Virus record (IMG/VR): IMGVR_UViG_3300048585_000186
Span: 1 to 41,512 of that record
Length of the DNA stretch: 41,512 nt
Strand: one strand, 5' to 3'
Source of the DNA: a virus
Made by a program: the position numbers and the translations under genes
The notes under the pieces: generated by a model
What the model saw: only the letters and a program-made list of their open reading frames with translations
Databases searched by the model: none
What the model was told of the DNA's origin: nothing
In this document: positions 1 through 41,466 of the stretch, one piece after another
Position numbering within the stretch: position 1 is the first letter of the stretch
Layout of the letters: each line of letters starts with the position of its first letter

Positions 1-37
1 CCCTCGAACCCGGTAACCCGGATTAACGGTTTTCGAG
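1..37 (-). pseudogene. Displaced tRNA-Ser 3' half (truncated by window edge)
   Basis: Read on the minus strand this is an anticodon loop CTCGAAA, the 3' anticodon stem ACCGT, a long serine-type variable arm (CCGG/CCGG stem) and the first strand of a T stem (GAGGG). The window ends there, so the rest of the T arm and the acceptor strand lie outside. The variable arm and T stem differ from those of the intact tRNA at the right end. This is therefore probably the original host 3' half, pushed aside when the phage supplied its own. Confidence 0.75.
23..37. other. attL core
   Basis: TTAACGGTTTTCGAG is identical to 41420-41434 and covers the anticodon loop and 3' anticodon stem of tRNA-Ser(CGA). 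The integrase gene ends 54 bp to the right, the usual att-int arrangement. An imperfect match continues leftward (ACCCGG plus one extra A). Confidence 0.85.
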
Positions 38-90: not shown

Positions 91-1254
91 TCAGCTACCG
101 TCGTCCGCCGTCGTATTTCGACGGCCACTATCTTGGCCAAAAGCGGTCCTTGGCCAATTCTGGCCAACGATCCGGAGGGCCTCGGCGGCCGCCCGGTCGG
201 CCCTCTCGGAGGGCCTCACGTAGTGCGATTCGGTGACCGACACGGTCGAGTGGCCGAGGCGGCGGGAGACCGTGTAGAGGTCGACGCCGGCGTCGAGCAG
301 CAGGCAGGCGTGGGAGTGGCGCAGGTTCTTGAGCTGCACGCGCCGCAGCTCCGCCTCCCGGACGCGCCGCTCGTAGTGCCAGCTGATCCGCCAGGGCCTC
401 ATCGGCTGGCCGTCCTCGGTCACGAGCGGCCCGAGGCCGCGCAGGGGCTTCAGCATGGCGACGGCCCAGGCGGGCAACGCCACGCTCCGCATGGAGGTCG
501 TCGACTTGGGAGCCTCCTCGATCACCCCGCCTTCGTGGTCGTGCAGGCCGCGGGTGACCGACACCTCGCCGAGCTCCGTCACGGCGCCGTCCTCGCCGGT
601 CTCCTTCCAGAAGCGCAGGTCGGACCAGCGCAGCCCGGCGAGCTCCGAGCGCCGCAGGCCGGCGGCCAGGGCGAGCACGATGACGGGCTCGAGGACGTGG
701 CCCTCGAAGGCCCGCAGGTACTGGGCCGCTTCCTCCGGGGTGAGGACGTCGGGGTTGCGCGCGCTGCGCACCTTGGGGACCTCGACGGCGCGCAGCGGGT
801 TGTTCTCGATCAGGCGCCAGCGCACCGCGACGTTGAGGGCGGCGCTCAGGACGCGGTAGACGTGGCGGCGGGTGCGCTCCGCGCCCTTGACGCCGTCGAG
901 CCAGCGGTCGAGCACGTAGGGGGAGAGGGCGGAAAGCGGGGTCTCGCCGAGCTCAGGCAGGATGTGGTTCTCGATCTTGGAGCGGTAGTCGACGACCGTG
1001 CGCGTGCGCAGGCGCCCCTCGACGTGCGGCAGGTACATGTCCTCGAGGAACTGGCGCACGCTGACGTCCTCCTCGGGCATGCGCCCCGCCTCGAGGAGCA
1101 GCTTGGCGAAGGCGATCGCCGCCTTGCTCTCGTCGCCGCGCACCGTCACCGAGGGGCGACGGCGCTTGCCGGTGACCGAGTTGTAGCCGATCGAGACCCG
1201 GATGCGCCAGAGGCCGGGGAAGACTTCCTCCATGCTGCCGACCTCGCGCCTCAC
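91..1254 (-). CDS. int: Tyrosine site-specific integrase
   Basis: This phage integrase (387 aa) catalyses recombination between attP and the tRNA-Ser attB. The N-terminal part is an arm-binding AP2-like domain (residues about 10-60). A core-binding SAM-like domain follows (about 65-150), then the catalytic domain (about 170-350). Visible catalytic elements are the first arginine in GLRRSEL (about 199-205), LRHSHA with Arg312, LGH with His335 and the nucleophile Tyr345 in ESHYV. The GTG at 1254 gives the longest form. An ATG at 1233 (MEEVFPG) has a GAGG eight to nine bases upstream and is equally plausible. The gene lies 18 bp downstream of an XRE regulator on the same strand, so the two are probably co-transcribed. 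Its 3' end contains candidate arm-type sites. Confidence 0.95.
   Translation of the reverse strand: MRREVGSMEEVFPGLWRIRVSIGYNSVTGKRRRPSVTVRGDESKAAIAFAKLLLEAGRMPEEDVSVRQFLEDMYLPHVEGRLRTRTVVDYRSKIENHILPELGETPLSALSPYVLDRWLDGVKGAERTRRHVYRVLSAALNVAVRWRLIENNPLRAVEVPKVRSARNPDVLTPEEAAQYLRAFEGHVLEPVIVLALAAGLRRSELAGLRWSDLRFWKETGEDGAVTELGEVSVTRGLHDHEGGVIEEAPKSTTSMRSVALPAWAVAMLKPLRGLGPLVTEDGQPMRPWRISWHYERRVREAELRRVQLKNLRHSHACLLLDAGVDLYTVSRRLGHSTVSVTESHYVRPSERADRAAAEALRIVGQNWPRTAFGQDSGRRNTTADDGS
133..168. promoter_or_regulatory. Candidate integrase arm-type sites, left cluster
   Basis: TTGGCCAA occurs at 133-140 and 150-157, and TGGCCAAC at 161-168. The spacing is about 10-17 bp, roughly one to one and a half helical turns. 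The same octamer recurs close to attR (41299-41317), so in the circular phage the two clusters would flank attP within about 135 bp on each side. That is where arm-type integrase sites usually lie. The left cluster is inside the last codons of int. Confidence 0.5.
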
Positions 1255-6018: not shown

Positions 6019-6228
6019 GTGGAGCGCGTCAGCCTGAGTCAAGCAGCCCGCTGGAAGAAGAAGTACGCCTACTACCGGACCTCCCGCGGTGAACTGCGCC
6101 GCGTGGTGAGAATCGAGCGAAAGCGGCCCAACTGGCGCCTCGTCCTCGAAGACGGCCGCGACTTCCTGGTCGACCCGAGCACCATGCTCTTTTCCGATGT
6201 GATGGATGACGGAAAGGTCAACTCGTAG
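6019..6228 (+). CDS. Small basic hypothetical protein
   Basis: The 69-aa protein has a basic start (LSQAARWKKKYAYYRTSRGE) and beta-type segments (VVRIERKRPNWRLVLEDGRD). GTG 6019 has AAGGAG five bases upstream. It is the last rightward gene before the oppositely oriented defence operon. No family recognised. Confidence 0.5.
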   Translation: MERVSLSQAARWKKKYAYYRTSRGELRRVVRIERKRPNWRLVLEDGRDFLVDPSTMLFSDVMDDGKVNS

Positions 6229-6241
6229 CCCCCATTGTCAT

Positions 6242-6313
6242 CCTTGTTGGCCGCTGATGCGTGGCTAGATTGATTGTCACGACCCGGGTTGACTGCAACG
6301 GGTGCCAACAAGG
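6242..6313. repeat. Wide inverted repeat in convergent intergenic region
   Basis: CCTTGTTGGC (6242-6251) and GCCAACAAGG (6304-6313) are exact reverse complements with 52 bp between them. The whole 172-bp gap 6229-6400 contains no gene I can support. It separates rightward phage genes from the leftward defence operon. It may fold in RNA from either side and help terminate transcription, or mark an old insertion boundary. Confidence 0.4.
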
Positions 6314-6331
6314 GTCGGAGCTCATCCGGGG

Positions 6332-6359
6332 CCCTGCGACGTGATGAGCCGTCGCAGGG
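6332..6359. terminator. Convergent transcription terminator (stem-loop)
   Basis: CCCTGCGAC and GTCGCAGGG form a perfect 9-bp stem with a 10-base loop. It lies 42 bp beyond the vsr stop codon on the minus strand and about 100 bp beyond the last early gene on the plus strand. The following plus-strand bases are moderately T-rich (TCTCGTTACTTCTC). Confidence 0.6.
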
Positions 6360-6400
6360 TCTCGTTACTTCTCTACCTCTCGGGGACGCCCGCCTATATG

Positions 6401-6844
6401 TCAGATCTGCATGCGGCTCCGGACGAGATCTGCAACCCTTGCTGCAGCTTCTTCGGAATCGTCGTGCTCCCAGATCCGAATCACAATCCAGCCGGCTTCC
6501 TCTAACCGGGCCGTGGTGTCGCGATCGCGCTTGACATTCCCCTCTATCTTGGTGCGCCACCAGTCGCTATTGGTGCGCGAAGGCGCTCTGTGCAGAGCGC
6601 AGCCATGCCAGAAGCATCCGTCAACGAACACCGCTACCTTGGTGCGCGTGAAGACGATGTCCGCCGCCCTGCGAATTGTGGGGACGGGGCGAATGTGCAC
6701 TCGGTATCTCAGTCCGAGCCGGTATAGGGCCGACCTGAGCCTGCGTTCAGGTACTGTGTCCCGCTGACGCTGCAGCTGCATCCTTCGTCGCACACAGTCA
6801 GACGACGCGGCGGGAGCGCGTTCTCTGCCGTCAGACGGCACCAC
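6401..6844 (-). CDS. vsr: Very short patch repair (Vsr) endonuclease
   Basis: The 147-aa protein matches Vsr. The N-terminal RQRDTVPERRLRSALYRLGL is followed by the ADIVF strand (Asp62, equivalent to the catalytic aspartate), VAVFVDGCFWHGC (about 70-82), NSDWWRTKI, NVKRDRDT and GWIVIRIWEHD. Vsr nicks at T:G mismatches produced when 5-methylcytosine deaminates within the partner methylase's site. It begins directly at the end of the C5-methylase gene, the usual pairing. The first 20 residues are probably non-conserved; a later start at Met22 (RRRMQLQRQ) is possible. Confidence 0.95.
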   Translation of the reverse strand: MVPSDGRERAPAASSDCVRRRMQLQRQRDTVPERRLRSALYRLGLRYRVHIRPVPTIRRAADIVFTRTKVAVFVDGCFWHGCALHRAPSRTNSDWWRTKIEGNVKRDRDTTARLEEAGWIVIRIWEHDDSEEAAARVADLVRSRMQI

Positions 6845-8095
6845 TCAATCCGCCGCGCCGAAGCCCTTGGTCGGACTGCTTTTCGCGCACACGTCTTGCG
6901 CTAGGCTGGCGCTGACCAGTTCGGCCACCCTTTGGGCGCAAATGGGCGCCACGATGTTGCCGACCAACTGGTACTTCCGCGTGTCTCCTGCGTCCCAGTC
7001 GCCCAGCCCGGCGACCAAGGCGTCGACGTGAGGACCGAACAAGCGCAAGGCGCGCTCCGGTCGGAGGCGCATCACCAAGACACCGTCCTGCTCCCGACTC
7101 CAGTTGGAGAACTCCAGAAAGGCCTCCCGATCCTCAACCTTCTGAACAGAGTCGATTGGCGCTGCGAACAACGGGGCACCGCCGATGCTGGTTCCTACGC
7201 AGTGGGATGAGGCCTCGCTGCGGAAATGCAGTCTCGTCGGGCCTTGTCCGCGTTCCGTCGACCAGTATCGGACTGAACGAACTAGGCTCCCCTTCCGGAA
7301 GTGCGGCGCGACGATCTCTGCGAGCGAGGGGCGAGGATCCGGCGATGGCAGGTCGTCCAAGTCGAAACTGAGAAACCGCACACCAGACGTTCGTCCGAGA
7401 GGTCCGAATCGATATGGCTTTCCCGGGCGAGGCTTGCCGATTGCTGGTCTCAGAGCCTCTCGTGTTTCCGCCAGTGATGCCTGATAGCGAAGCTGCCAAG
7501 AGGCGCCCAAGTCCGACAGCATGCTAGAAAACAGGCCGGGCTCATCGCAGTCAAAACCAGGCAGGGTAGGGTGTGGAAGTTCCGATTGCGGAATGCGTAG
7601 GACCCCGGGTTGGAAGGCGACCATGAAGAGGCGCGGCCGGGTCTGGGGAATGCCGAACCAGCGGAGGTTGACCAATAGCCAGTCTGTTCGGTAGCCCAGT
7701 TCGGACAGGCTTGACAGAATGCTGGCAAGGGTGTGTCCGGCTTTGTTCGTCAGCAGGCCCTCCACGTTCTCGAACACTGTAAGTGGCGGGCGTCGAGTCT
7801 CCATCAAACGAGCAATATGCTCGAACACGTTTCCTGAGCTGTGGTGGAAGCCACGTCGGTTCCCTGAGGACGAGAACGGCTGACACGGGAATCCAGCTAC
7901 CCAGACATCTGCTTGAGGGATTTCGTCCGCCGCCATTTGCGTGAGATCCGCTTCTACTGCATCGCCGAATGAGCGACGGTGAACGGCCACCGCGTCCGGG
8001 TTGTTGTCGACAGCGAGCGAGCAATGCCATCCCGCAGCCTCCAGGCCAGCTCTCATTCCGCCAGCGCCGGCGCAGAAGTCGATGTACGTCAACAT
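6845..8095 (-). CDS. dcm: DNA (cytosine-5) methyltransferase of the defence operon
   Basis: The 416-aa protein has the ordered C5-MTase motifs. Motif I is DFCAGAGGMRAGLEAAGW (about 6-23). Motif IV is AGFPCQPFS with the nucleophile Cys71. Motif VI is FENVEGLL and motif VIII QTRPRLFMV. Motif X is near the C-terminus (QLVGNIVAPICAQRVAELV). The target sequence cannot be read from the protein. It overlaps the GP88-like gene by 7 bp upstream and abuts vsr downstream. It could protect self-DNA from the operon's helicase-nuclease or act as a second, independent RM methylase. Confidence 0.95.
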   Translation of the reverse strand: MLTYIDFCAGAGGMRAGLEAAGWHCSLAVDNNPDAVAVHRRSFGDAVEADLTQMAADEIPQADVWVAGFPCQPFSSSGNRRGFHHSSGNVFEHIARLMETRRPPLTVFENVEGLLTNKAGHTLASILSSLSELGYRTDWLLVNLRWFGIPQTRPRLFMVAFQPGVLRIPQSELPHPTLPGFDCDEPGLFSSMLSDLGASWQLRYQASLAETREALRPAIGKPRPGKPYRFGPLGRTSGVRFLSFDLDDLPSPDPRPSLAEIVAPHFRKGSLVRSVRYWSTERGQGPTRLHFRSEASSHCVGTSIGGAPLFAAPIDSVQKVEDREAFLEFSNWSREQDGVLVMRLRPERALRLFGPHVDALVAGLGDWDAGDTRKYQLVGNIVAPICAQRVAELVSASLAQDVCAKSSPTKGFGAAD

Positions 8096-8871
8096 TCCGC
8101 GGGCCTATGGCATCGGGAGCAGGCTGTCTGGCACATGCCTTCCGGCCGGGTGTCATCAAGATACTCGAGGAGAACCTTCGGACACAGGGACGCCACGTCT
8201 ACCACTTCTCGAACACGGCCTACCCTGTGTACCGGGAAGGTCACGACGGTGTCCGGCGGTGGCATGTCGTCTACGCCGTCGGACGAGTACGCCAAGGGAA
8301 GCCCCGCATCTCGCGCGCCCATGAGAGTTGCCGGCGCGGTTGAGCGGTCGCACGAGAAGAGAACGGCGATATGTTCCTGCTGCAGGGCTCTTGCCACCTG
8401 AAGGCTCCGAGTGAAGCCCCACAGCCAGACGCCGCCGTCTTTGATCTGACGAAGGGCAGGGAGGTGGTCCTTCGTCACCTCTCCGCTTCCTGCGTACCGA
8501 AGGTTGGGGTTTCGAAGCACGCCTGACCTCGTGGCCGCTTCTACTTCTCGCCGGACGGCGGTGCCGAATAGAGCGGGAAATCTGCGCGCCAGAACGTCGA
8601 TCATCGCTGCATGACGATTGTGCAGTGCGCCAGATTGCCTGCCCTGGAAGGTGTAGCACCAGCCATTTGGGCCGCCGCATGCTTCCGTGGCCGTGTAGCA
8701 GTAGTGCGGCCAGTCAAGCGACAGCCCGGTGTCGTGATTGCTACTGGTGACCCTTCGCCTTAGGAGGAGTTCCTCCCACTCAACTTTCGACAACGCCTCG
8801 AACTCAGCCCTATGGGCCAGCTCCTTGTCGAGCCGGCGCTTCCATCTGGGCGTGCTACTCGTGGAAGCCAA
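8089..8871 (-). CDS. GP88-like cysteine-rich protein in a defence operon
   Basis: The 260-aa protein resembles the actinophage gene-product-88 family as I know it. It has an early cysteine group (Cys58, Cys65, and Cys72 in WCYTFQGRQSG), an HNRHAAMI helix (84-91), LRYAGSGEVTKDHLPALRQI (about 124-142) and VWLWGFTRS (148-155). GP88 proteins have CxxxxC..CYA..G, HxRN, an IHDSGDF strand and FYAYTK at the same places. A second cysteine cluster ends the chain (Cys230, 247, 251, 254, 260). Nine cysteines suggest a metal or Fe-S centre. The biochemical function of GP88 is not known to me. It overlaps both neighbours, so it belongs to the operon rather than being a stray gene. Confidence 0.65.
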   Translation of the reverse strand: MASTSSTPRWKRRLDKELAHRAEFEALSKVEWEELLLRRRVTSSNHDTGLSLDWPHYCYTATEACGGPNGWCYTFQGRQSGALHNRHAAMIDVLARRFPALFGTAVRREVEAATRSGVLRNPNLRYAGSGEVTKDHLPALRQIKDGGVWLWGFTRSLQVARALQQEHIAVLFSCDRSTAPATLMGARDAGLPLAYSSDGVDDMPPPDTVVTFPVHRVGRVREVVDVASLCPKVLLEYLDDTRPEGMCQTACSRCHRPAEC

Positions 8872-11800
8872 GTGACTCCTGGTCTCCGATTTCGATTGTC
8901 TTCGGCGCGGCTGTGTCCTCTGGCTGCGGCAGCGGCAACTCCGTATCTTGAAGCGTCGGCCCGCAAATCACCAACTCCAGAAAGTCCGCGAGTTCGGGCC
9001 ATAGAGCCACACATCCCTCGACAACCCACAGAAGCTCGAGGAGTTCACCGGTGAACGTCCATCCATGCGGCCGGATGTCGTCTAGTGGCGTTCGGCTTGA
9101 GCCTCGCCGTGCACGACCGCCCCGCTCCTTCATTCTGTAGCGCAGCCAGCTCTCTACGGGTCGAAAGCCGGACTGACTATAGCCGTAGACCTCGCTAGAA
9201 ACCGGCCCAATGAGTCCACCACCGACTCGCAACTCGTCGGCATCAGGATTGTGCCCGTAGTCCTCGGGGTAGTGCTCGAGCTCCTGCGGAATCGGCCGGA
9301 TCACTGCGGCAGTCCCCGTCACTGAGGAGGCCGGAACTGCGCCTTCGCCCAGCCATCTCTCGCCAAAGGTCTGCAGCCAAATCAGACGAGCGCCCAAGGC
9401 CGCTCCCATTGCGAACACGTTGGCATCTCTGGGGAGCGGGATACGTGGCCCGGGGACTCTCAACTCGGACTCGAAACGCTCGACGTAGCTGGGCGATCCC
9501 AGAACGGCCATGCAGTAGCTGAAAAGGCTCTCGGCCGAAACGTTGGTATTCAGGACGGAGGAGAGAGCCTCAAGGAGGCCAGGCGTCACGTTCGGTCGTG
9601 TGCCAGCGGAATCACGCCATAGGGGCACGATGTCCTTCGCTCCACGATTGCAGAACACGTCCATGTCGGGCAGGAGACTCGTCACAGTGGCGGCGGGCCC
9701 CCTGCCCAGTTGCTTCGACATGAGCGATGCGGCGAACACTTGCCTTGGTCCGCAGGCGCCCATCAAAGGGGGGCGCAAGAAGTCACCGAGCCGCGTATCG
9801 AGCAGACACCACTGTCGGTCCAGTGTGCGGTAGCAGTAACGGACGATGATAGGCACCGCTGTATCGGCGGGCAGATCAGCGATTCCAGTGCATCTCGCGG
9901 AAGATGTCCCGCGAGGCGGAGCAGCGATAATCCGGTCTCGTGTTTCGACGAAAGCAGACGCTCGATCCTCGCGCGGGAGCGACATCAAATGGCTCCAGCG
10001 GTCACGAAGCACCTCCTGCGATTCGCCGATCGGCCAGAGGCGCTTGAACTGTGATCCCGAGTGCTGCCAGGGGAAGAGGCTCGTGAACTTGGGCCATGTG
10101 ATGAAGGCGCCAGTTGAAGCGGGCATGAAGGTCCCGTCAGAAGAGGCACAGGTCTCCCATGACATGACTTCCGTTGTCTCGCCCAACGATTCCAGCGTCG
10201 AGAGCTTGTCCTCCGATGTGCCCGTCACCTCTTTGTATGAGACTGCGCACTCGACATCGTTAGGTGTAGGGCATCGCGAGCAGACACCAATTGCGACCCC
10301 CGTCTCGATGTCAAAGACGTTCTCCGACTTTCGTGCACCCCGGTTGTCCCCGCCGAGATCAGTCACGCGAATGGTGTCGGAGACAGTGCGCATTCTGCTC
10401 CTCATACCGCTGTGGCCTGGACCTGCAATGTAGGCTCGGGGGGAGATCATGCCTATGATTCCTGGCCCCGGCTGCCGTTCAAAGACCAGCCACAGGGCCA
10501 GTCTCCAGAACATCACAGACAGCTCGTACGCGAGCTTGGCGTGTACGCCCTCATTCGTTTGCGCGAGCGGCGCAATGAAGTCGTCAAAGAGGGGGCGCCC
10601 GGAATCCCCGCCATCACCGTAGCGGACCCAGCCACCAATGCGAGTGTCCGGAGCATTGTCGGAGTGCTCCTTCTCCCGAAGGTACGGCGGGTTGCCAACC
10701 AGGACGGTGAATCGCCGCTCAAGCTTCACGCGGCTGACAGCTTGGGCTTCGTGGGCGAGTGCTGGCGAGAGGTTCGCAAACGCCAACTGCCCCTCCCGCT
10801 CGGCTGCCGGCTCGAGCGAGTCGGTGAGGTAAACGTGAACGCGCTGTTCAGCCTGGAAGCGGTAGCCTGTCTCGTGGAGCTTCAAGCCAATCTTGAGGTG
10901 CGCGATGGCGTACGGAGCCATCAGGATCTCGAAGCCGAACAGTCGCGGCAGCAGATGCTCTGCCACGTACTCGTTCCAGTTGTCCACGATCTCAGACGGT
11001 GGGCAGCCTTGCTTCGACCACTTCTGGGTCATGCGTTCGTGGATAAGGTCAATGACCTCGACGAGGAAGGTCGCCGTGCCCACCGCTGGATCGAGGATCT
11101 GAACGAACGGCGCGTTCGGCGAGACGTTCACGGGGACGGTGACGCCCGGACAGCGGTTGGCCAACTCTGCCCAGGTTGTCGTGTCGGCAAGGCCGTCCGC
11201 GAGCCCGAACCTTGTGCGCAGGACCTCGTCCACCGATTTCACGATGTAGGAGACGACGGGACGAGGTGTGTAGAAGACCCCTCTCCTCACCTTCTCAGCT
11301 GGGTCGTATTCCTTGAGAAACGACTCGTAGAAATGGATGACTGGGTCCTCGCGAGGATTCCGATCGCCGAAGTCCCGGATGACTGCATCCATGTCCGCGT
11401 TGTCCAGTAGAGCCGCCACTTCACTAAGACCCAGCTCGTCGAAGTCAATGCCGTGTCGGGCCTGATTGCCGTTGCCGCCCATGGTGAGGAACGTAGTCAT
11501 CAGCTCCCGAAGCAGCGGATTGGTCCTCAGATGCAGCGCCAAGTCGTCAGTTGTCTTCGAATGGGGGTCGGCAATGCGAGAAGACAGCAGCCCGTAGGCG
11601 ATGGTCTGGGCATACATGTCGGCGAAGCCGTCGGCGTCCAGATCGTGAACTAGCGCCCGACGAAAAGCCCCCATCAAACTGGTAAGGGGACCCTTCTTGC
11701 TTTCGATCGCCAGGGTCGCATGGATCCGCTCGCGGATTTCCCTAGCCAAGGCAGCCAGCCGAATGGCCAGGTCCTTCGACGTGGTGATCGCTTCATTAGG

Positions 11801-12385
11801 TCGCAGGGTGAACGCCGAGCGCCACGTCTCCCTCCAAGCTTCCAGGTTATTGGCATCCTCCGGCCAAGCGAGCTTCTTTGTCAGTGCGTCCGCTACGCGG
11901 TCAAGGTGCAGGTCCGTGTCGCGCTCGTCCCAGGCAATGACTTCGAGCGTGGGCAGAGTGCCCTCTCCAGCGTGTGCGAAATGCGCAAAGCTGAGCTGTC
12001 TCTCATGCCCTTCGCCGTAGTTGGAGACAAATAGCAGGTCGTCTGCCTGCCAAGCCACGCGATCGGGTGCGTTGGCAGACGCACGCTTGCGCAGCACGGC
12101 ACCGCTGAGAATGCGCCGCAAGGCCATGATAGGCAGGCGCTTGGGCTCGAAAGTTACGAAGAAGATTCCCCAGGGTTGGTTGTCGACGAGGGGGCGTAGC
12201 CGGCGTATCTCTTGGACCTTCGCGGCGCTCGCGTCATCCAGACCCAGTTCCTCGGGGGTGTAGTCGAAGACGAGGTCGTCGTATTCCTCGAACTCAATTG
12301 GCCAGTTCATCTCCTCCCGGAGGAACTTGATGAGCTCCGGGAAGCCTCGGACTTGCTGAAGCTGTGTTCTGTGAGAGGACAGCAC
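8855..12385 (-). CDS. Adenine-specific DNA methyltransferase, type ISP-like
   Basis: The 1176-aa protein has an N-terminal helical region of about 350 residues. The class I MTase core follows: FYTPRPVVSYIV (371-382), SAM motif DPAVGTATF (432-440), FGFEILMAPYAIAHLKI, and catalytic NPPY (565-568), which indicates N6-adenine methylation. The C-terminal region (about 1030-1150, with YGYSQSGFRPVESWLRYR, SRTPLDDI and ELLELLWVVEGC) resembles the specificity domain of type ISP enzymes such as LlaGI/LlaBIII. No helicase or Mrr-type nuclease is present in this chain; those activities are in the next gene upstream. It starts five bases after the helicase stop. Confidence 0.85.
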   Translation of the reverse strand: MLSSHRTQLQQVRGFPELIKFLREEMNWPIEFEEYDDLVFDYTPEELGLDDASAAKVQEIRRLRPLVDNQPWGIFFVTFEPKRLPIMALRRILSGAVLRKRASANAPDRVAWQADDLLFVSNYGEGHERQLSFAHFAHAGEGTLPTLEVIAWDERDTDLHLDRVADALTKKLAWPEDANNLEAWRETWRSAFTLRPNEAITTSKDLAIRLAALAREIRERIHATLAIESKKGPLTSLMGAFRRALVHDLDADGFADMYAQTIAYGLLSSRIADPHSKTTDDLALHLRTNPLLRELMTTFLTMGGNGNQARHGIDFDELGLSEVAALLDNADMDAVIRDFGDRNPREDPVIHFYESFLKEYDPAEKVRRGVFYTPRPVVSYIVKSVDEVLRTRFGLADGLADTTTWAELANRCPGVTVPVNVSPNAPFVQILDPAVGTATFLVEVIDLIHERMTQKWSKQGCPPSEIVDNWNEYVAEHLLPRLFGFEILMAPYAIAHLKIGLKLHETGYRFQAEQRVHVYLTDSLEPAAEREGQLAFANLSPALAHEAQAVSRVKLERRFTVLVGNPPYLREKEHSDNAPDTRIGGWVRYGDGGDSGRPLFDDFIAPLAQTNEGVHAKLAYELSVMFWRLALWLVFERQPGPGIIGMISPRAYIAGPGHSGMRSRMRTVSDTIRVTDLGGDNRGARKSENVFDIETGVAIGVCSRCPTPNDVECAVSYKEVTGTSEDKLSTLESLGETTEVMSWETCASSDGTFMPASTGAFITWPKFTSLFPWQHSGSQFKRLWPIGESQEVLRDRWSHLMSLPREDRASAFVETRDRIIAAPPRGTSSARCTGIADLPADTAVPIIVRYCYRTLDRQWCLLDTRLGDFLRPPLMGACGPRQVFAASLMSKQLGRGPAATVTSLLPDMDVFCNRGAKDIVPLWRDSAGTRPNVTPGLLEALSSVLNTNVSAESLFSYCMAVLGSPSYVERFESELRVPGPRIPLPRDANVFAMGAALGARLIWLQTFGERWLGEGAVPASSVTGTAAVIRPIPQELEHYPEDYGHNPDADELRVGGGLIGPVSSEVYGYSQSGFRPVESWLRYRMKERGGRARRGSSRTPLDDIRPHGWTFTGELLELLWVVEGCVALWPELADFLELVICGPTLQDTELPLPQPEDTAAPKTIEIGDQESLGFHE

Positions 12386-12390
12386 TCTGT

Positions 12391-15300
12391 CTACTCCCTA
12401 CTCAGTTCCATCCAGCACTTGAGGATTGGCTTGACGCCTACCGGCGCATTCACCTTCTTGAGGTACGTGTTCTTGATGTGCTTCTCGACCTTGGCGCGGA
12501 TGTCCGACAGCGTTTCATCTGGAACGCCACGATGGCGTGGCGTGTCTGGCCTGCACCTGATTGAGTCGACGATCCTCGAAGGGTCATCCATGATCTCGCC
12601 CGACTCCAACCGATACAGGTACCATGCTGTGGAACCGAGCTCCTCGGTCCAGGCATCAGCGGGAGAGCCCACTGGCGTCTCATTGAGCTCTGGCGCGGGC
12701 AACGCATAGCAGAAGAACACACCGTCGGATGCCTCGGCTGGGCGTCGCTTGCCACTGAAGAGGCGCCCCGGGAGGGCATCAAGTTTCGTGGCGAGCTCCG
12801 GGTCGTCCACAAGCAGCTGCTGGAACTCGAGATGCATCTCCTCTGTCGGGGTAGTAGTGCCTTCGTAGGCGTGGACGAAGTCGCGCAAAGCCTCGTAGTC
12901 GTCATCGGGAGTGAGCAGCTTCTTTCCCTCGATGCCAAAGACCTGGGAAATACGCAGGGTCTTGCGGGTTACGACGGCATACAGACTCAGCAGCGTGTTG
13001 AGTTCCGCCGGCGGCAGGAAGTTCCAGAACGCCACGGTCTGACGGACATCCGCTTGGTCGGGGTGGTCGACGACGATGTGTTCCTCAATCTCCGGGTTCA
13101 GACGCCTGTCGACACGCCCTATGCGCTGCATTAGTCGGACGGGGTTCCAATGCAAGTCGTAGTTGATGAGCCGAGTTGCGTCCTGCAGGTTGAGTCCCTC
13201 TGAGAGCACGTCGGTCGAAATGAGCACTCTCGTCTCGTTCTCTCCGAGTTCAGCAATCCCGGCGCTCGACGACTCGTTGTAGTACGGGGCGAACTTCCAG
13301 ATCGTCCTGTCGCGCGGGGTCTTCACCATGCTGTCGACCTCGTCAAGGCCCATGATGCCGGCCTCCTCCAGCCGATGACGCAGGTAGCGGGCTGTCGTGA
13401 GGTACTCAGAGAAGATGATGACCTTGTGCTTCTTCAGTACTGGGTCAGTCTTGAGCAGTGCGATTAGTTGCTGCAGCTTGTCGTCGTTCTTGGGCTTCAG
13501 CTTCTGCAACTCCTCCAAGAACTCGGCGACTTGTTCGAGGTCCGCGATCGACTCCATGAGCATGTCGGTTACGTTGAAGTCCTCACGTGGCAATTCCTCA
13601 TAGGCCTCGAGGAGCTCAGGCGGGACGATGTCCTCCTCTAGCTCCTCTTCGTCGTCGAGTTCCTCGCCAAGTTCGAGCTGCTGCTCCTGGCGCTTCACGT
13701 AGCCGATCAGGTCAGCATGACGCTGCTTCCACAGCTCTAGGGCATGCTTCTCGCCGGCGGTGACGCTGTTCACAGTGACGAAAGCGAGAAGCTTCTTGAG
13801 AAGCGTCCCACATGACATTTCAAAGGCTTTCGGCGAGCTCTCGAAACGCTTCAGGAACTGCAGGCGGATGAGGCGAACCACTTGGCGCTGACGGCCTGCG
13901 TCCATGGCCGAGATCGCGTCTGGATCGTCGCCAGTGTAGTAGTTGAGCGGGTAGTACATCGGAAGCGTGAATAGCGGGTTCTTCTTACTGAAGGCGCGCT
14001 CAAAGCTGCTGAGCAGTGGGCCATAGGTCTTGGCGACCGAGTACTTCACAACCCTCGGATCCTCGCGCTTCGGGAAGACGGCCTGCCGGCCACCGTATTG
14101 CCGCTGGCTCTCCTGAACGTATCTGCGGCTTCGCTGGACGATGATCTCGCGGAAGAGCTCCTGGTCCCCGAGTACCCGCTCGAAGTCGACTTGATCGGTC
14201 TCGAAGTCGCTGCCGTTGTCCTCTGACCCTGTGACAGCCAGGCTCTTCTCAAGGTCCTTCTCGAGCTTGCGGAAATAGCCGGCTACAGACTGGATCCCAA
14301 GCGGCGCTGCCGCGAAGTGTGTGGCTTCGCGGTGGGAGAAGAGCTCGATCATGTGCTGCAGATCGAGCAGCCGATTGTTGACCGGTGTTGCCGTGAGCAT
14401 GAACACCTGCTTGCCCTCGCAAATGTCGTAAAGCTGCCAGTAGCGGGACTGGCGCTCGTCCTCTCCTTCGGCACGCACTCCTGGATTACGGAAGTTGTGC
14501 GCCTCATCGATGACGACGACGTCAGCCATCTCGCGCACCCGGGCAAGCCGGGCCGGCCAGTCACCATGCTGTCGGAGAAGGTCTGTGTGGCTGAAGACGG
14601 CGAGGTGGCTGAAGTCGCTGGCTCCACCCCAGACATGCGGCACGTATCTGCGAAGGTGCGGCTCCCACACTGCGGAGCGCGCGGACTTCGGCACGAAGAG
14701 GGCAACATTCTTGCCCTCGAATGAGCAGAGGCGTTCGATGAGCATGAGGCCAATGAAGGTCTTGCCGAGACCGACGCCATCACAGAGGAAGGCTCCACCC
14801 CAGCGCCGGGCGATCTTCATGAGGGCCTGGTAGCCCTCCTTTTGATACTGGTCGAGCTTTGGGTAGACCTCGGACTCAGTCTGCTCCCATTCACCCGAAG
14901 TCAGCTCGTGGCTACGGAAGAACTGCTGCAACGCCTTAGCGTAGACCTCGAAAGGCGTGTACTCGCGAGTGTGACGCTCAATGACTCTGAGGATTTCGGG
15001 GGTGACATCCTCTGCCTCGTCCCAGTGCCGCTCGTACCACTCTTGGAGTACCTCAACTTCGCGGCGCAGCTGGACGTTGAGCTCGATGTTGGTCGTCAGG
15101 CCGGGGTACGTGAAATTGCTTGACCCGACGAGAGCGGTGGAACCGACCACCCTGTGCTTGGAGTGCGTGATGTAGGCCTTGGCGTGGAACTTCCCTCTGC
15201 CGTACACGCGGCACTCGATCTGACGCTTCTGCAGGGCCTCGACAATCGCCGGGGCACCGTGTAGGAAGTCGTTCTTCTCCTTCTCACTCTCGATACTCCT

Positions 15301-15660
15301 GTCGAGTATCTCGCCCGCGTGTTTGATGCCTGCAACGAGCGCCTGGTGCGTGCGCTTGGTGACCTCATTGCCCATGAGGATGCGGAGCTTGTCGAGCTTC
15401 TGCCACTGGCCGTCCAGTGCAAGAAGGGCACCAATCTCGAAGTAGCCAGTGGCGACGTCGAACTTGTGCGCGAGGTCAGCCCACTCGTGGAGGTACTCCT
15501 GGACACGCCAGAGGTCCGCATTGTCGACGATGAAGAGGTCGCCGCCTTGCTGTTGCTCTGCCAACGACTTGCCCCCAGTGCTGGCTCCATGCGCTCTTAG
15601 GTCAACCGCCAGCGCGAAGTCTATCGAAGAGAGCGTCACGTAGGGGAGAGCACCGCTCAT
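12391..15660 (-). CDS. PLD-nuclease/SNF2 helicase fusion (restriction subunit)
   Basis: The 1089-aa protein begins with a phospholipase-D-type nuclease domain (about 40-200): GKFHAKAYI with His159 and Lys161, then VGSSNF (178-183), one HKD half-site. Residues about 260-900 are an SNF2 translocase: Walker A DGVGLGKT (294-301), VVVIDEAH (381-388), MLTATPVNN and the C-terminal motifs ISTDVLSEGLNLQ, LHWNPVRLMQRIGRVDRR. It would translocate on and cut unmodified DNA. ATG 15660 is chosen because the nuclease domain begins soon after; the frame is open to 15954, but that part is poorly protein-like and overlaps a plus-strand gene. Similar SNF2 proteins occur in class 1 DISARM (drmD). Confidence 0.85.
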   Translation of the reverse strand: MSGALPYVTLSSIDFALAVDLRAHGASTGGKSLAEQQQGGDLFIVDNADLWRVQEYLHEWADLAHKFDVATGYFEIGALLALDGQWQKLDKLRILMGNEVTKRTHQALVAGIKHAGEILDRSIESEKEKNDFLHGAPAIVEALQKRQIECRVYGRGKFHAKAYITHSKHRVVGSTALVGSSNFTYPGLTTNIELNVQLRREVEVLQEWYERHWDEAEDVTPEILRVIERHTREYTPFEVYAKALQQFFRSHELTSGEWEQTESEVYPKLDQYQKEGYQALMKIARRWGGAFLCDGVGLGKTFIGLMLIERLCSFEGKNVALFVPKSARSAVWEPHLRRYVPHVWGGASDFSHLAVFSHTDLLRQHGDWPARLARVREMADVVVIDEAHNFRNPGVRAEGEDERQSRYWQLYDICEGKQVFMLTATPVNNRLLDLQHMIELFSHREATHFAAAPLGIQSVAGYFRKLEKDLEKSLAVTGSEDNGSDFETDQVDFERVLGDQELFREIIVQRSRRYVQESQRQYGGRQAVFPKREDPRVVKYSVAKTYGPLLSSFERAFSKKNPLFTLPMYYPLNYYTGDDPDAISAMDAGRQRQVVRLIRLQFLKRFESSPKAFEMSCGTLLKKLLAFVTVNSVTAGEKHALELWKQRHADLIGYVKRQEQQLELGEELDDEEELEEDIVPPELLEAYEELPREDFNVTDMLMESIADLEQVAEFLEELQKLKPKNDDKLQQLIALLKTDPVLKKHKVIIFSEYLTTARYLRHRLEEAGIMGLDEVDSMVKTPRDRTIWKFAPYYNESSSAGIAELGENETRVLISTDVLSEGLNLQDATRLINYDLHWNPVRLMQRIGRVDRRLNPEIEEHIVVDHPDQADVRQTVAFWNFLPPAELNTLLSLYAVVTRKTLRISQVFGIEGKKLLTPDDDYEALRDFVHAYEGTTTPTEEMHLEFQQLLVDDPELATKLDALPGRLFSGKRRPAEASDGVFFCYALPAPELNETPVGSPADAWTEELGSTAWYLYRLESGEIMDDPSRIVDSIRCRPDTPRHRGVPDETLSDIRAKVEKHIKNTYLKKVNAPVGVKPILKCWMELSRE

Positions 15661-15922
15661 TGCGGTCGTCCATCGGGAACGGCCCTCATTCCATAGCGGC
15701 CGCCAGTTTGGAGTCCGGCTTCGTTGGAGTCTCCGTCCGGCCACTGGGAGTCCATGCCCATGCAAGCCAAGAATGCTCATCACGATGTCACACTGGTAGG
15801 GGGTCGAATCACACGCAAGCAGTCTCGCGTACCCTGCCTGCCGCCCTCCGCGTGCAAAATCGAAAATGGAGTTTCTGAGAGCGGGTAACGGGTTCCGGTG
15901 ACGGTCGGCCCATGATCGGGCC
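15661..15922. promoter_or_regulatory. Divergent promoter region between defence operon and late genes
   Basis: These 262 bp lie between the start of the leftward helicase gene and the start of the rightward zinc-finger gene. It should contain the promoter of the defence operon and possibly a late promoter. The segment near 15857-15880 (GTGCAAAATCGAAAATGG) is the most AT-rich. A short inverted repeat GGCCC/GGGCC (15907-15911 and 15918-15922) sits directly before the zinc-finger start codon. I could not fix promoter boxes. Confidence 0.4.
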
Positions 15923-16303: not shown

Positions 16304-16830
16304 GCAAGCCGCCCACGCCGCAGATCCGGCGCGTGAAGACCTCCGACCTGGCGTCCGACCCGGACAACGCACGGATCCACGGCCGCAACAACCTGCGCGC
16401 CATTCGCGAGTCACTCGAGCGGTTCGGCCAGGTGCGCCCGCTGCTCGCGACCTCCGAGCTCGTCGTGGTGGCCGGCAACGGCACGCTCGCCGCCGCGGAG
16501 GCGCTTGGCCTGGACGAGCTCGAGGTGCTCGTGCTGCCGTGGGAGGACCGCGAGAAGGCCCGCGCCTACGCGATCGCCGACAACCGCACGGCAGAGCTCG
16601 CGACCTGGGATGACGAGGCCCTTGCCGGCCAGCTCGTCGACCTCGCGGCCGCCGGGGTCGACATGGGCACGCTCGGCTTCGACGTCCCCGAGCTCGGCGA
16701 CCCGGGCGGCCCGCCGGTCACGCAGTCCAGCCGCGAGGCTCTCGAGGAGGAGGCCGCGGTCGCCTACCGCTGCCCGGCCTGCGGTTTTCGCTGGCGGTTC
16801 GAGGATGGGGGAGAGGTGACGCCGCTATGA
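16300..16830 (+). CDS. ParB/sulfiredoxin-fold protein 1 with zinc ribbon
   Basis: The 176-aa protein is a ParB N-terminal-like domain (about 8-105): DLASDPDNARIHGRNNLRAI, FGQVRPLLA, VAGNGTLAAAEALG and AYAIADNRTAELA. A short C-terminal zinc ribbon starts CPACGFRW. The GNGT/DNRT boxes are the nucleotide-binding or catalytic motifs of the fold. In phages this domain is often next to, or fused with, DNA methyltransferases, as here. It may bind DNA or act as a nuclease; it is unlikely to be a partition ParB, because no ParA or HTH domain is present. ATGA overlaps on both sides. Confidence 0.8.
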   Translation: MSKPPTPQIRRVKTSDLASDPDNARIHGRNNLRAIRESLERFGQVRPLLATSELVVVAGNGTLAAAEALGLDELEVLVLPWEDREKARAYAIADNRTAELATWDDEALAGQLVDLAAAGVDMGTLGFDVPELGDPGGPPVTQSSREALEEEAAVAYRCPACGFRWRFEDGGEVTPL

Positions 16831-17324
16831 AGGCCGAGGTCGTCGCCATCGCTACTCTGGCCGCCGATCCGGAGAACGCCCGCCTGCACAACCGGCGGAA
16901 CCTCGAGGCGGTCAAGGCCTCGCTCGCACGGTTCGGTCAGACGCGCCCGCTCGTCGTCACCGAGGACCTCACCGTGATCGCCGGCAACGGCACGCTCGCC
17001 GCCATGGTGGAGCTCGGCTGGGAACACGCCGCGATCACCCGCGTGCCCTTCAGGGACGCAGGCGAGGCCCGCGCCTTCGCCCTGGCGGACAACCGGACGG
17101 GCGAGCTCGCGCAGTGGAACAAGCCGGTGCTGCTCGAGGCCCTCGAGGCGCTTGCGCTCGAGGGCTGGCAGCTCGACGGGCTGGGCTTCGAGCCGCACGA
17201 CATGGCGGCGCTCAAGTCCCGGGAGCGGCAGGCGCCAGCCGAGTTCCCGGCCTACGACCTCGACCTCGAGACCGAGCACCGCTGCCCGGAGTGCGGCTAC
17301 GAGTGGAACGGACGTCCGGAATGA
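16827..17324 (+). CDS. ParB/sulfiredoxin-fold protein 2 with zinc ribbon
   Basis: The 165-aa protein is a paralogue of the preceding gene with the same order of motifs: DPENARLHNRRNLEAVKASL, FGQTRPLVV, IAGNGTLAAMVELG and ALADNRTGELA. It ends in an HRCPECGYEWNG zinc ribbon. The tandem copies have diverged outside the motifs, so the duplication is not recent or was inherited as a pair. ATGA overlaps with the gene before and with the methyltransferase after suggest a fixed three-gene unit. Confidence 0.8.
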   Translation: MKAEVVAIATLAADPENARLHNRRNLEAVKASLARFGQTRPLVVTEDLTVIAGNGTLAAMVELGWEHAAITRVPFRDAGEARAFALADNRTGELAQWNKPVLLEALEALALEGWQLDGLGFEPHDMAALKSRERQAPAEFPAYDLDLETEHRCPECGYEWNGRPE

Positions 17325-18343
17325 GCGGGCGGCCGGCGTACCGCGTCCCGACGCTCGCCGAGATCGCGCGGATCCCGTGGAACGGCTTCACGGTCGCCTC
17401 GCTCTTCGCGGGCGGCGGCGGCAGCTCGACCGGCTACCGCATGGCGGGCTACCGCGTGGCCTATGCGAACGACGTCGTGCCCGAGGCCCGCGAGACCTAC
17501 GAGGCGAACTGCGCCCCGTACACGGTGGTCGATGGCGACGACGTCCGCACCGTCCCCGGCTCGCGGATCCTCGATGCGGTCGAGGCGATGACCGGCAGCC
17601 GCCAGCTCGACGTCCTGGACGGCTCGCCTCCCTGTCAGGCCTTCTCCATGGCGGGGCCGCGCGACGGCACCTGGGGGAGGGAGGTCGCGCACGCGGACGG
17701 GACGACCCAGCGCAGCGACGACCTCTTCTTCGAGTACGCCCGAATCCTCGAGGAGGTCCGGCCGACCGCCTTCGTGGCCGAGAACGTCCCGGGTCTCGTC
17801 AAGAGCGTCTCCCGCGGCTATTTCAAGCGCATCCTCGCCGCGCTGCGGGCGACCGGTTACCTGGTCGAGGCGCGCCTGCTCGACGCCCAGTGGCTGGGCG
17901 TACCGCAAACGCGCCAGCGGCTCATCTTCGTCGGCGTGCGGAACGACGTCGGCCTGGGGCCGGCCTTCCCGGCGCCGCTGCCCTGGTTCATCCCGCTGAG
18001 CGAGATCTGCCCCGACGTCGTGCGCGTCGAGATCTTCGGCTACGGCATCGTGAAGGAGATCAGGGACGCGAGGAAGGCGCCCTCGAACACGATCCTGGCG
18101 AGCGGCTACAGCGCCTGCGCCGACGCCTACGACCTGGTCTGCGCAGACGGCCGGCGACGGAAGCTCACCATCGAGGAGGTGCGCCGGATCGGCTCGTTTC
18201 CTTCCGACTACCGGTTCAGCGGAGGCCACAAGCAGGTCTGGACCCGGATCGGCAACAGCGTGCCGCCGCTCATGATGAAGGCGGTTGCGGAGACCGTCCG
18301 CGAGCGAATCCTGGACCAGGCGAGGACCGCCTCCCATGGCTAA
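17321..18343 (+). CDS. Second DNA (cytosine-5) methyltransferase, phage-type orphan
   Basis: The 340-aa protein has motif I SLFAGGGGSSTGYRMAGY (about 27-44), motif IV DGSPPCQAFS with Cys105, motif VI VAENVPGLV, motif VIII QTRQRLIFVG and motif X RIGNSVPPLMMKAVAE. There is no restriction partner beside it and its GC matches the phage, so it probably protects phage DNA from host restriction. It is distinct from the defence-operon C5-methylase at 6845-8095. It overlaps the terminase small subunit by 8 bp. Confidence 0.93.
   Translation: MSGRPAYRVPTLAEIARIPWNGFTVASLFAGGGGSSTGYRMAGYRVAYANDVVPEARETYEANCAPYTVVDGDDVRTVPGSRILDAVEAMTGSRQLDVLDGSPPCQAFSMAGPRDGTWGREVAHADGTTQRSDDLFFEYARILEEVRPTAFVAENVPGLVKSVSRGYFKRILAALRATGYLVEARLLDAQWLGVPQTRQRLIFVGVRNDVGLGPAFPAPLPWFIPLSEICPDVVRVEIFGYGIVKEIRDARKAPSNTILASGYSACADAYDLVCADGRRRKLTIEEVRRIGSFPSDYRFSGGHKQVWTRIGNSVPPLMMKAVAETVRERILDQARTASHG

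Positions 18344-41371: not shown

Positions 41372-41466
<95 letters not shown>

Follow-up and report, generated by a model that had tools for sequence, protein, structure and literature searches.

A temperate phage carries, on the minus strand of its genome, five intact genes that are best read as two restriction-modification (RM) modules stacked within a single transcription unit. The window, meaning the whole stretch of DNA that was analyzed (41,512 nucleotides), is an entire IMG/VR virus record (IMGVR_UViG_3300048585_000186) that encodes an integrase, a terminase, a portal, and a tape-measure protein. The first module joins a PLD-SNF2 nuclease-translocase (P0001) to an N6-adenine methyltransferase (MTase) with a type-ISP specificity domain (P0002), a widespread pair that has no name in the libraries searched, while the second consists of an orphan gene (P0003), a C5-cytosine MTase (P0004), and a Vsr mismatch endonuclease (P0005). 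On balance we favor the reading that both modules share one cargo slot and are transcribed together, and that they protect the lysogen. The features of the locus are as follows.

6327..6364, no strand assigned: possible terminator, a 15-bp inverted repeat beyond the Vsr gene end (inverted-repeat scan)
6401..6844, minus: Vsr mismatch endonuclease P0005 (TIGR00632, 122 bits against a cut-off of 97.85; PF03852)
6845..8095, minus: C5-cytosine MTase P0004 (PF00145, 167 bits; TIGR00675, 168 bits)
8089..8871, minus: P0003, cysteine-rich orphan, proposed module 2 endonuclease (unproven)
8876..8880, minus: Shine-Dalgarno sequence AGGAG, 4 nt before the P0003 TTG start
8855..12385, minus: N6-adenine MTase P0002 with type-ISP specificity domain, proposed modification/specificity subunit of module 1
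9107..10081, minus: type-ISP C-terminal target-recognition domain (TRD) of P0002, residues 769-1093, hypervariable (Pfam)
11681..12385, minus: pair-specific N-terminal domain of P0002, residues 1-235, proposed helicase-coupling domain
12391..15660, minus: PLD-SNF2 nuclease-translocase P0001, proposed restriction subunit of module 1 (Pfam, PADLOC, motifs)
13105..14865, minus: SNF2-family motor of P0001, about residues 266-852 (Pfam, motifs)
15019..15531, minus: PLD (HxK...GSSN) nuclease domain of P0001, about residues 44-214 (Pfam, motifs)

The genes run in the order PLD-SNF2, MTase, P0003, C5-MTase, and Vsr, with junctions of +5, -17, -7, and 0 bp; the positions and spacing reported in the first-pass annotation are exact, and its impression of lower GC than in the phage is borne out. 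GC content is 0.58-0.62 over 6-16 kb versus about 0.66-0.73 elsewhere in the window, and GC3 agrees, at 0.69-0.78 in the five genes versus 0.80-0.97 in the sampled phage genes whose frame had a family hit. The AGGAG and TTG start of P0003 fall within the end of the MTase gene, and genes 2 and 3 are therefore probably coupled in translation. A promoter scan of the locus returned nothing exceeding chance, and inverted-repeat sites were no more numerous than in shuffled sequence, leaving the terminator only a possible one. The catalytic motifs looked for in P0001, P0002, and P0004 are all intact.

The ends of the window and the gene beside the left one bear on the carrier.

16..37, plus: left att-like core, 22 bp, repeated at 41414-41434 with a 1-nt difference
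91..1254, minus: phage integrase adjoining the left att-like core (PHROG integrase, 196 bits)
41375..41466, minus: tRNA-Ser (CGA), containing the right att-like core 41414-41434

An att-like core at both ends, the right copy one base shorter than the left and inside a tRNA-Ser gene, is the pattern expected of an integrated prophage with both of its ends. Together with the integrase and the structural phage genes, this supports the earlier proposal that the operon is carried by a prophage. The host is likely actinobacterial, since the terminase is nearest, among annotated records, to those of Streptomyces phages (about 31-32%). The terminase and portal region is common to the window and three IMG/VR contigs, and one of these, a sibling phage (L118), encodes a type III RM pair (Mod, 702 aa, and Res, 852 aa; L118:2195-6858, minus strand) in the slot equivalent to window positions 6190-15910. 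The flanks of that pair match window positions 6020-6188 and 16356-17191, and thus the five genes sit where the sibling has a different RM system. The shared slot is a further instance of prophages exchanging RM cargo at a single site, and horizontal acquisition of the five genes as prophage cargo is supported. The phage backbone region also contains a second C5-cytosine MTase gene (17114-18343, plus strand), right after a ParB-like gene (16827-17324).

P0001 matches the Pfam families PLDc_2, RE_NgoFVII, SNF2-rel_dom, and Helicase_C and, partially, the PADLOC model C3a139 'HKD+Snf2' (185.6 bits). Its PLD HxK...GSSN motif (residues 159-HAKAYITHSKHRVVGSTALVGSSN-182), Walker A, DEAH, and motifs V and VI are intact. 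The reading frame is open to 15954, but homologs begin near residue 37-39, so translation may actually start downstream of 15660. P0002 matches Type_ISP_C (PF18135, 193 bits) and N6_Mtase (33 bits) in Pfam, REase_MTase_IIG (694 bits) in PADLOC, and the LlaBIII and LlaGI chains in the PDB, and it retains FYTP, DPAVGTATF, and NPPY motifs. An AF2 model of its N-terminal domain (pLDDT 75.5) had no Foldseek match in the PDB, so the fold cannot be named.

A survey queried with a two-sequence alignment of P0001 and its L002 relative (56% identical) yielded 80 genome loci and 5 viral loci, including one duplicate (L002 and L094 are the same contig), from Acidobacteria, Nitrospirae, Chloroflexi, Planctomycetes, Proteobacteria, Verrucomicrobia, Actinobacteria, Poribacteria, and others. 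A same-strand downstream protein with the P0002 N-domain was present at 75 of 86 helicase loci, and the window, with its 5-bp gap, agrees; the domain was absent from all other loci examined. Among the 11 misses, eight (L015, L019, L046, L055, L064, L065, L070, and L095) end at or just past the helicase, and the sequence of two more (L047 and L081) ends within 0.9 kb. In 16 of the 75, what follows the N-domain belongs to another type of MTase or is cut off. The two genes are adjacent in 25 of 35 complete pairs and separated by inserted genes in the other 10, which include AAA_21, DUF4276, DUF3800, AbiEii, and AAA plus S8 protease genes, several of them of abortive-infection or defense type. Genes 1 and 2 therefore recur as a two-gene unit.

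Three further features of these neighborhoods were observed. The gap within the pair resembles an insertion slot for defense-like genes (L021, L032, L036, L048, L050, L063, L020, and L079). In L012, L016, and L060, the pair N-domain is fused to far longer MTases (1509-1587 aa), that of L012 giving a strong PglX match (484 bits). Finally, a Rhodococcus plasmid (L010:6953-12969) has an MmeI-type MTase gene immediately after that of a distant PLD-SNF2 helicase, a similar pairing.

Conservation within the pair is uneven. Across pairs, the helicase has a mean pairwise identity of 57%, with conservation over the greater part of the chain. In 50-residue bins, identity to the window is 41-71% for MTase residues 1-550 but falls to 11-22% over residues 701-950 and 1001-1150; the target-recognition half is summarized as 15-20% identical, and in the bins spanning P0002 residues 751-1100, relatives are 11-36% identical. 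A conserved engine with an exchanged target-recognition half is the pattern that RM specificity turnover produces and, judged from sequence, the one expected of an ATP-dependent RM system split over two chains. Helicase and MTase distances are moderately correlated (Pearson 0.45, Spearman 0.21), which is what TRD swapping would give, yet is weak as proof of partnership.

We hypothesize that P0002 would recognize the target site and methylate adenine on self DNA, and that on unmodified DNA its N-terminal domain would engage the SNF2 motor, which would then translocate and bring PLD subunits together for cutting. The N-domain is present with the helicase and absent from solitary plasmid MTases, which ties it to the presence of the helicase, and we propose that it recruits the helicase. 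If so, module 1 would be a simple two-gene system with an invariant engine and exchangeable specificity on separate chains, and the N-domain would predict the means by which an MTase recruits a PLD-SNF2 nuclease. In PADLOC the two genes carry separate labels (a partial 'HKD+Snf2' and a 'type IIG'), so surveys would miss the unit. A bolder version of this reading, which we regard as possible but doubtful, is that the pair represents a class of split ATP-dependent RM systems, phylum-wide and without a name, with an undescribed coupling domain and interchangeable accessory defense genes, extended here by a second RM system whose nuclease would be P0003, a protein without known relative.

In module 2, P0004 has intact motifs I, IV, VI, VIII, and X, P0005 contains FVDGCFWHGC, and the two genes abut at a 0-bp junction, the arrangement of R-M-V operons. 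Among 62 viral Vsr loci found with P0005, 49 carry a P0004 homolog within the stretch retrieved, directly beside Vsr on the same strand in 18 of them; Dcm-Vsr is a common pair that recurs without the helicase-MTase pair. In three loci (L253, L255, and L257) the Dcm-Vsr genes run on into a protein weakly similar to the P0001 motor. A viral contig (L283:1-7768) has in a row a GHKL-like ATPase, a gene of unknown function, Vsr, a PLD-SNF2 relative (131 bits), and a type-IIG MTase; Vsr genes can thus adjoin helicase-MTase units of other subfamilies.

The remaining gene, P0003, encodes 260 aa with nine cysteines and a C-x3-C-x2-C at 247-254. It had no family hit in PADLOC, Pfam, NCBIfam, or PHROGs, and no relative among phages, plasmids, viral contigs, genome contigs, or 396 + 251 genomes of two phyla when sought with the single sequence, a kind of contig scan that finds close relatives only and leaves room for remote ones. 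Weak hits in the genome set, to phosphoglycerate kinase and other unrelated proteins, were set aside as chance. An AF2 model of P0003 alone had a pLDDT of 37. The sequence contains no [DE]xK, HxK, or HNH-like pattern, so the one pointer to a nuclease role, given the lack of a family hit, is position: in the P0003-MTase-Vsr layout, P0003 stands where type II operons have their restriction gene. Restriction endonucleases are frequently without detectable relatives, and for these two reasons the cognate restriction endonuclease of an R-M-V set is the most likely role for P0003, an assignment by analogy that we make tentatively. In module 2 as we envisage it, P0004 would mark self DNA, Vsr would repair T:G mismatches arising from deamination of m5C, and P0003 would most likely be the cognate nuclease; the two modules together would protect the lysogen against other phages.

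Module 1 would stand equally if genes 3-5 were instead a solitary m5C methylation and repair pair, with P0003 an unrelated passenger and the mark shielding the prophage from host restriction. Viral Dcm-Vsr pairs often have no recognized endonuclease neighbor, and the phage has the second C5-MTase of its own described above, both of which fit this explanation; but P0003 overlaps both of its neighbors, as a random passenger is unlikely to do, and we consider the explanation unlikely.

The first-pass annotation had treated all five genes as one dual-mark (m6A plus m5C) restriction system with P0003 as a new accessory or effector. Its account of two methylases of different chemistry alongside a nuclease-translocase is supported by Pfam hits and motifs, the exclusion of other phages that it proposed is a likely function, and its statement that the union matches no named system holds in that no exact PADLOC match was found. 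Gap-free packing, the similar GC3 of the genes, and the P0003 start embedded in the MTase gene would also be expected of one co-evolved system. Helicase, methylase, and Vsr genes do occur together (Iyer et al., 2008; PMC2292703), and L283, with Vsr beside a distant PLD-SNF2 and a type-IIG MTase, shows that genes of these kinds can lie in one operon, although its helicase is only a 131-bit relative and the locus has no C5-MTase hit. The neighborhood survey, which the first-pass annotation had itself named as a refuting test, went against a single system: the helicase-MTase pair recurs over about 85 helicase loci with no relative of P0003 or P0005 and no adjacent relative of P0004, the trio is found at none, and a separately fetched actinobacterial locus likewise has the pair alone. 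As the pair and Dcm-Vsr each recur separately, we reject the five-gene system and judge it improbable.

Four of the five gene identities proposed from the sequence alone (PLD-SNF2, ISP-type adenine MTase, C5-MTase, and Vsr) are upheld by family hits, but the fifth, 'GP88-like' for gene 3, is not. Were the label right, P0003 might be a distant GP88/DUF5131-like iron-sulfur protein acting on the P0004 product, m5C, to modify it further, and its richness in cysteine and a visual collinearity (C-x6-C-x6-CY, GSGE, GFTRS, and C-x3-C-x2-C near the end) would suit that role. P0003 does not match the Pfam GP88 family (PF17338) even at E 10, however, and hhalign gave a probability of 0.5% against 77 true GP88 proteins collected by motif and 0.2% against DUF5131, whereas four of eight DUF5131 proteins used as controls reached 52-66% against GP88. 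The shared look is thus only an impression, we reject the GP88 identity, and we give the iron-sulfur role a slim chance. For curators, this means dropping both the erroneous GP88 label and the claim of a five-gene system.

Least probable is that genes 1 and 2 represent a reduced DISARM or DUF499-centered BREX-related (type-2 BR) system, which the latter's HKD-SNF2 effector plus N6-MTase (PMC12839542) and P0001 matches to DrmD (98 bits) and HmaA (74 bits) might suggest: the matches are confined to the helicase motor, no DrmA, DrmB, DrmC, DUF499, or DUF3780 gene is among the five, and P0002 is type-ISP/IIG with no COG1743-like hit, so that membership is refuted for this locus.

The two-module reading places the locus among several known systems. 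Type ISP enzymes such as LlaGI and LlaBIII likewise combine an SF2 motor, an N6-MTase, and a Type_ISP_C target-recognition domain, but they are single chains with an Mrr-like nuclease, whereas here the nuclease is a PLD domain fused to the SNF2 motor in P0001, and the MTase and TRD lie in P0002. Solitary type ISP/type IIG enzymes on Thermus, Corynebacterium, and Rhodococcus plasmids have an MTase core and TRD 30-37% identical to P0002, but they align only from about residue 223-254 onward, lack the pair-specific N-domain, and stand alone in the neighborhoods viewed. In CglI and NgoAVII, separate MTase, endonuclease, and helicase-like ATPase proteins act together (PMC4267653; PMC5737866), an RM function split over cooperating proteins as proposed here; CglI, however, has three proteins with a separate R-protein, while in this locus one protein combines nuclease and motor, and specificity resides in the MTase. 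BR/Hma-like systems have an N-terminal HKD nuclease and SNF2 helicase effector together with an N6-MTase (PMC12839542), but their DUF499 ATPase and DUF3780 are absent from the five proteins in Pfam and PADLOC. As for the DISARM core, PADLOC gave no DrmB (DUF1998) hit, and DrmA/DrmD hits were solely to the P0001 helicase motor. The second module resembles Dcm-Vsr pairs and R-M-V type II operons, with a C5-MTase directly followed by Vsr, and MORC/helicase/Vsr RM operons, in which Vsr is on record with helicase and methylase genes (PMC2292703); it differs from all of them in its third gene, the orphan P0003. Each half of the locus is otherwise built from known parts.
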